A stretch of DNA of 64,000 nt from a virus. The translations under genes were made by a program, and so were the position numbers. This document shows, piece by piece, positions 28,249 through 28,376 of the stretch (positions are counted from its first letter, which is position 1; each line of letters opens with the position of its first letter). The stretch spans positions 1 through 64,000 of IMG/VR virus record IMGVR_UViG_3300045741_000389; one strand, written 5' to 3'. A model generated the notes under the pieces. It was given only the letters and a program-made list of their open reading frames with translations. It had not been told where the DNA came from and searched no databases.

Positions 28249-28376
28249 GCGGGGATCAGGCCGATCGGGCAACGCGCGCGTCCTAACCACTAGACGACGA
28301 CACCCGGAGGGTGCCGGCAGGATTCGAACCTGCGTTTCGCCCTTGGATGGGAAGTAACCCGTTCTATCGCCACCGC
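28249..28376 (-). ncRNA. Y-RNA-like element YR-E (circularly permuted tRNA-like, CCA anticodon loop)
   Basis: 128-nt RNA closed by GCGG/CCGC, with UGGCGAUAGA at the 5' side and CCUGAUCC at the 3' side. Internally the tRNA parts occur in permuted order: anticodon arm UUCCC-AUCCAAG-GGCGA (one C-C mismatch, loop reading CCA), short variable region, perfect T arm GCAGG-UUCGAAU-CCUGC, acceptor strand CGGCACC, a tight loop, acceptor strand GGUGUCG (7 pairs), then D arm GUCU-AGUGGUUA-GGAC. CGAU/AUCG and CGGG/CCCG form the Ro-proximal stem. Confidence 0.8.

Follow-up and report, generated by a model that had tools for sequence, protein, structure and literature searches.

What the tRNA-like end of a bacterial Y RNA does is still an open question. 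In YrlA this domain, which DusA and TruB modify, resembles the D, T and acceptor arms (PMC8394870) and is circularly permuted relative to tRNA (PMC11472068); tRNA mimicry by YrlA is already known. The tRNA-like domain of Salmonella YrlA has been suggested to be a competitive inhibitor of an anticodon nuclease (PMC7790460), and tRNA-cutting defences are known together with phage tRNAs that counter them (PMC11555353, PMC10264068). The question is raised here by a phage element, YR-E, in a window of 64,000 nucleotides (positions 1 to 64,000 of the 68.8 kb virus record IMGVR_UViG_3300045741_000389). The original prediction described YR-E as a permuted tRNA-like Y RNA sharing its Ro side with a sister element, YR-B. 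In the literature searched we found no mention of Y RNAs with a full anticodon arm bearing real, exchangeable anticodons; an earlier mention is possible in Chen 2014, Wang 2018 and Sim & Wolin 2018 and 2020.

Layout of the element

YR-E, a Ro-type handle with a permuted tRNA module, occupies 28249–28376 on the minus strand, as assigned from the sequence and by a module descriptor. The predicted ends were exact: GCGG (28376–28373) pairs with CCGC (28252–28249), and CGGG/CCCG follows around an internal loop. This terminal stem is the putative Ro60-binding stem. The 5′ strand of the handle, GCGGUGGCGAUAGAACGGGUUACUUC, lies at 28351–28376 (minus strand) and its last C is also tRNA position 29; the 3′ strand, CGCGUUGCCCGAUCGGCCUGAUCCCCGC, lies at 28249–28276 (minus strand) and is near-identical in YR-B. 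The handle common to the two elements reads 5′ GGUGGCGAUAGA[A/C]CGGGUUACUUC and 3′ CCCGAUCG[G/U]CCUGAUCCCC, in agreement with the predicted common Ro side.

From the handle end UUACUUC the chain continues into the anticodon hairpin (28340–28351, minus strand; C29–C31 with G39–G41), to which a hairpin in the 40-relative consensus is homologous. It is followed by positions 42–43 (CG; 28338–28339, minus strand), paired across the module with positions 27–28 (CG; 28278–28277) according to the phage-module pairing table, by a 4 nt variable loop, AAAC, and by the T arm GCAGG-UUCGAAU-CCUGC (28317–28333, minus strand), assigned from the descriptor and from covariation. The second half runs through the acceptor 3′ strand, a loop of 3–5 nt and the acceptor 5′ strand [stem CGGCACC(C)/(G)GGUGUCG, 28298–28316, minus strand, without a CCA end] to the D arm GUCU-AGUGGUUA-GGAC (28280–28295, minus strand), position 26, positions 27–28 and the 3′ handle strand. 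By the descriptor, pairing in the T and D arms is complete or nearly so, and the acceptor-like stem connects the two. The perfect T arm had been predicted, as had a D arm of Glu/Gln-like type; the D arm is Glu-like. The variable loop had been called short, yet 4 nt is also its length in several relatives with this E-type D arm. YR-E reads as a tRNA whose chain opens on the 5′ side of the anticodon stem and whose acceptor ends are joined to each other.

The descriptor asked for a T arm, then an acceptor stem and then a D arm, the permuted order, with a score cut-off of 16. YR-E is beyond chance by this measure, because it scored 18.8 and dinucleotide-shuffled DNA yielded one false module scoring at least 16 in 4.48 Mb, both strands included. 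Single-sequence folding of YR-E returned the T and acceptor hairpins only and missed the remainder of the cloverleaf (z −0.31); the support for the proposed structure is comparative and comes from sources other than single-sequence folding. We regard this structure, and the kinship of YR-E to Y RNAs, as close to certain.

Comparison with known Y RNAs

The Y RNAs of vertebrates and Deinococcus have paired ends for Ro60 and an outward effector domain, an arrangement that YR-E shares, its paired ends being expected to bind Ro60; unlike theirs, its effector end is a complete tRNA fold. YrlA (Rfam RF02553; structure 6CU1) has the same order as YR-E, namely a 5′ Ro strand, T arm, acceptor-like stem, D arm and 3′ Ro strand, and shares with it both the circular tRNA permutation and a gene that adjoins Ro60 (PMC11472068). 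As in YrlA-type RNAs, the permuted T arm, acceptor-like stem and D arm of YR-E stand between paired ends, and the element lies on the same strand as the TROVE reading frame, 190 nt away.

Unlike YrlA, YR-E, YR-B and most of their relatives add an anticodon stem-loop. When a Paenibacillus relative is aligned to the Rfam YrlA model, this hairpin appears as about 16 inserted nt. The gathering score of RF02553 is 69, and YR-B reached 35.2 bits and the Paenibacillus relative 39.9; YR-E did not reach the gathering score and was not listed for this family at E ≤ 1 in the Rfam scan. At the gathering threshold none of the 12 + 18 phage loci and 17 bacterial loci scanned matched RF02553. The Rfam YrlA model thus misses the class with an anticodon arm at its threshold.

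The Ro60 gene and the Y-RNA array

The presumed binder of the handle is a phage Ro60/TROVE protein of 478 residues encoded at 26656–28092 on the minus strand (PF05731, 1.1e-08; phrog_850; TROVE chains 9l5y/9kop). Upstream of its gene, on the same strand, six Y-RNA-like elements stand in tandem, each ending in a (U/C)UGAUCC-type motif. YR-B (28600–28735, minus strand) carries a permuted tRNA-Thr(UGU)-like module with the loop CUUGUAA. YR-A (28841–28907, minus strand) and YR-D (about 28385–28470, minus strand) are Y-RNA-like and no tRNA module was seen in them; YR-C (about 28470–28596, minus strand) has a T-arm-like hairpin and no clear permuted module. In YR-F (28115–28240, minus strand) there are a T arm and an acceptor-like stem, CCUUGG/CCAAGG, and a second hairpin, CCGGG-CGCAUAA-CCCGG, forms the cap. 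Its loop is similar to the anticodon loop of Met(CAU), so that an anticodon-like arm stands at the acceptor end.

Two further features were noted on this strand. A long hairpin lies between YR-A and YR-B (28720–28860, minus strand; predicted −63.4 kcal/mol, z −3.1), and a short protein that has a DnaJ domain and matches part of the DnaJ zinc finger is encoded upstream of the array (29570–29920, minus strand).

Relatives and linkage to Ro60

IMG/VR was scanned twice with patterns for the permuted order, giving at least 131 contigs; as the patterns required ACUUC and either an AGCUCAG or a GUCUAGUGG D arm, the frequencies of tRNA identities are biased. A TROVE gene was found with an iterated profile, among the matches listed, in 91 of the 131 fetched contig pieces, which had been found by DNA pattern alone and many of which are short. 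With annotated phages included, the phage set comprised at least 163 distinct modules in at least 94 loci, from phages of Xanthomonas, Brevundimonas and Caulobacter and from uncultured phages; these sequences are related, and counts from them are not independent events. A CcrColossus-type phage that infects Caulobacter (L010) has the same arrays. One scan of bacterial genomes gave 133 modules in 90 loci, including Streptomyces, Paenibacillus, Chryseobacterium and Bradyrhizobium. The exact handle of the window had no match in IMG/VR.

Modules scoring at least 16 within 4 kb of a TROVE gene were on its strand by 158:1 in the first set, among the matches listed, and by 137:0 in bacteria. A UACUUC platform is nearly constant upstream of the modules, U preceding ACUUC in 137 of 139. 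The E-type D arm (GUCUAG), in the same T–acceptor–D order as in YR-E, recurs in 14 further loci; together with the alignments described below, this answers the concern, raised with the original prediction, that the apparent D and T arms might be conserved in no relative. Tandem ordinary tRNA genes were considered as the source of the matches and rejected on three grounds: the joined strands are acceptor-complementary, the modules are strand-linked to Ro60, and positions 27/28 covary with 42/43. Some pattern matches without Ro60 (e.g. L039, L086 and L099) do resemble tandem tRNAs.

Covariation and the insertion point

RNAalifold returned the anticodon, T, acceptor and D arms from an alignment of 40 phage modules, with compensatory changes at 12 of 16 pairs; rows of this alignment were picked by anticodon pairing, and in those with a 4 nt variable loop, YR-E included, the anticodon part is shifted by one column. 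Over the full structure, standard pairs occupied 97.5% of cells, compared with 71.9% after shuffling and 28.7–47.2% with slid partners. The T and D arms were the most constant parts of the module.

A fair test is provided by 82 phage modules picked without an anticodon-stem condition. Pairs 27–43 and 28–42 were each Watson–Crick in 80 of these, all four pair types occurring at both, and in bacterial modules they were Watson–Crick in 83/85 and 81/85, respectively. Both pairs connect strands on opposite sides of the handle. A first fit of the insertion point was ambiguous (k = 0 to 5); in a fit-free table positions 27–28 are nearly always supplied by the strand after the D arm. The putative Ro60-binding stem accordingly interrupts the anticodon stem, within its 5′ strand, of a tRNA that is circularly permuted and otherwise complete. 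In YR-E the single anticodon-stem mismatch that had been reported vanishes, because C27–G43 and G28–C42 form with the strand after the D arm.

The anticodon loop

Loop statistics were compiled from 84 phage loops with a fully paired anticodon stem. U33 was present in 81, a purine at 37 in 81 and A38 in 73; G36 was followed by G37 in 22 of 23 cases and U36 by A37 in 45 of 46. When the pairing condition was replaced by a linker of at least 23 nt, R37 was found in 62/62 and U33 in 55/62. This pattern follows the rules of real tRNAs. Positions 34–36 varied (GUU 21, GCU 10, UGU 6, UGG 5 and 26 others), A34 occurred in only three of the 84 loops and an anticodon complementary to a stop codon in none. 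In all 15 phage arrays with at least two such loops, all anticodons differ, a raw count given without a chance expectation. On a check proposed with the original prediction, anticodon conservation versus drift among relatives, 34–36 vary among genuine sense anticodons, U33, R37 and A38 are kept, and YR-E itself is off the pattern.

The loop of YR-E is CAUCCAA (7 nt, anticodon UCC, A33) when the strand that follows the D arm supplies C29, and otherwise AUCCAA (6 nt); the latter is the register of its relatives, one nucleotide short. Neither is the 7 nt loop with U33 expected of a translation-competent tRNA. The anticodon had been given as CCA, which is wrong. The ARAGORN call of tRNA-Trp(cca) at 28309–28374 took the Ro handle strand as the 5′ part and left out the real D arm, and was rejected. 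In a circularized ARAGORN scan YR-B was called Thr(tgt) and YR-E was ambiguous. YR-E is an outlier among its relatives in the loop, with its arms kept, which would make it either a weakened copy or an RNA for a protein that reads the tRNA body.

In bacteria, long variable arms are a feature of tRNA-Ser and tRNA-Leu. Ser or Leu anticodons stood on short-variable-loop (type-I) bodies in 20 of the 84 phage loops, and with bodies and anticodons mismatched in this way the tRNA body is generic and the loop behaves as a display upon it.

Proposed role

The explanation that we favour overall, at about an even chance, is that YR-E is a YrlA-like Y RNA displaying a sealed permuted tRNA as a decoy. Once expressed, the RNA would be bound and stabilized through its handle by Ro60. 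The sealed tRNA, with its own anticodon arm, would then be displayed and would compete for host proteins that read the anticodon loop, the anticodon nucleases of phage defence being the most plausible of these. It would be neither charged nor used in translation, and cargo with different anticodons would be exchanged on one handle. The specific role of nuclease decoy, for which the argument is loop conservation, is credible at somewhat less than an even chance. More tentatively still, the Ro60 particles of phages, and of bacteria, may present whole arrays of permuted tRNAs, sealed and bearing genuine anticodons that can be exchanged. These would be a modular anti-defence that titrates or blocks anticodon nucleases and in which cargo is swapped as the nuclease repertoire of the host changes.

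An anticodon arm that obeys the rules of real tRNAs while its anticodon changes, in most phage and many bacterial examples, points to readers of the anticodon loop and makes the decoy idea directly testable. The phage tRNAs that counter tRNA-cutting defences, such as the T5/SP15 tRNA-Tyr, and tRNA-Lys against PrrC170, are likewise phage-made tRNA-like RNAs with real anticodons and possibly anti-defence (PMC11555353); those are normal and chargeable, whereas the Y-RNA modules are permuted, sealed at the acceptor and mounted on a Ro60 handle. Several points tell against a decoy. Without a standard 7 nt U33 loop, YR-E is a poor example of an anticodon decoy; phage tRNAs have been reported to become insensitive to anticodon nucleases, the opposite of a bait strategy (PMC10264068); and a freshly captured tRNA sequence would look tRNA-like even without selection. 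Nor would the function be specific to phages, because RNAs of this kind are also encoded in bacterial chromosomes, where the rule at position 37 is weaker (purine in 51/70 loops).

The strongest competitor, less likely than the decoy and yet still strong, above all for YR-E with its unusual loop, is a tether or adaptor: the module would recruit an effector, such as PNPase (known from bacterial Ro60 RNPs) or a tRNA-modifying enzyme, and the anticodon arm would be one part of a tRNA-shaped docking surface, its sequence being irrelevant. According to a review, the effector domain of YrlA binds PNPase and is a substrate of the modifying enzymes named above (PMC8394870), the constancy of the T and D arms fits such a role, and YR-E has kept the tRNA body and not the loop. 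What a tether leaves unexplained is the near-invariance of U33, R37 and A38 and the coupling of 36 with 37, in an arm that is missing from the Rfam YrlA model.

Cargo exchange and the sealed acceptor

That a fixed handle carries interchangeable cargo, as first suggested from YR-B and YR-E, is seen directly in the Xanthomonas phages 10KY502B and Olaya, which share a set of five Y RNAs. Handle bases of Y RNA 5 are identical at 24/24 and 33/34 positions and its cargo at 52 of 75 columns; the two anticodons are UGU and GUU, and the T and acceptor stems have been replaced with their pairing kept. Y RNA 4 has cargo in Olaya and none in 10KY502B, and Y RNA 3, of E type, is conserved between the two with the anticodon CUC. 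Y RNAs without cargo occur on the same handles in loci L007, L008 and L005.

Such cargo-less forms would suit neutral capture, in which the handle is the functional Y RNA and the tRNA fragments are passive cargo acquired by recombination with tRNA genes. So would the degenerate loop of YR-E and the cap loops that join the acceptor strands: these are mostly of 4–10 nt, UUCG and GCAA tetraloops included, and begin with NCCA in 20 of the 163 modules listed, compared with about 2.5 expected by chance. The excess may go back to tandem tRNA genes whose outer halves were lost, an origin that would account for the permuted order. We nevertheless consider neutral capture improbable, since compensatory pairing throughout, including that across the handle (80/82), and constant loop rules in divergent phages require continuing selection.

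In algae and archaea, permuted tRNA genes have the 3′ half before the 5′ half, as YR-E does, and mature into working tRNAs. A comparable precursor, from which the handle would be excised, the ends ligated and the acceptor opened, would make sense of the complete tRNA fold, the real anticodons and the minority of modules with NCCA beside the acceptor strand. It is nonetheless very improbable. Unlike in the algal and archaeal genes, the acceptor of YR-E is sealed, its strands being joined by 3–5 nt with no free CCA end, and the Ro-type stem is conserved as such; Ser and Leu anticodons on type-I bodies would mistranslate if charged. Among 44 records, many of them fragments, RtcB was found in three and an RNA ligase above the cut-off in four. 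In the 68.8 kb record of this phage there was no match to RtcB or to an RNA ligase of the kind by which a permuted tRNA gene would mature, though a host ligase might serve instead, and no canonical tRNA gene was detected. On these grounds, and in view of the mismatched bodies and anticodons, a decoy is favoured over translation, as in the original prediction, and stays a candidate role.

As an RNA-repair platform, the RNA would bring Ro60 together with a host ligase to tRNAs that have been cleaved, a role that the bacterial rsr-yrl-rtcBA operon may have. This recalls the Salmonella operon that links Rsr, Y RNAs and RtcB and is switched on by tRNA cleavage (PMC7790460), and ROT/TROVE proteins of jumbo phages have been interpreted as such a platform (PMC7824862). 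The reading has a very small probability here, as most of these phages, many known from fragmentary records, lack an RtcB or RNA-ligase match and a host ligase would be needed.

Observations in other genomes

Y RNAs with an anticodon arm like the phage ones were seen in chromosomes or prophages of many phyla (bacterial loci L153–L270), and those of Chryseobacterium repeatedly have a CAU-type loop. GenBank annotations of tRNA-Thr, tRNA-Ser and tRNA-Gln upstream of phage Ro60 genes (L007:3280–3347, L009:3221–3295 and L010:2595–2662) coincide in part with Y RNAs and are probably wrong; a Y RNA can thus be mistaken for a tRNA when it lies just before a phage Ro60 gene. Downstream of the Ro60 gene of Brevundimonas phage Kikimora, Rfam gives a match to permuted tmRNA (L009:6796–7141, 57.7 bits).
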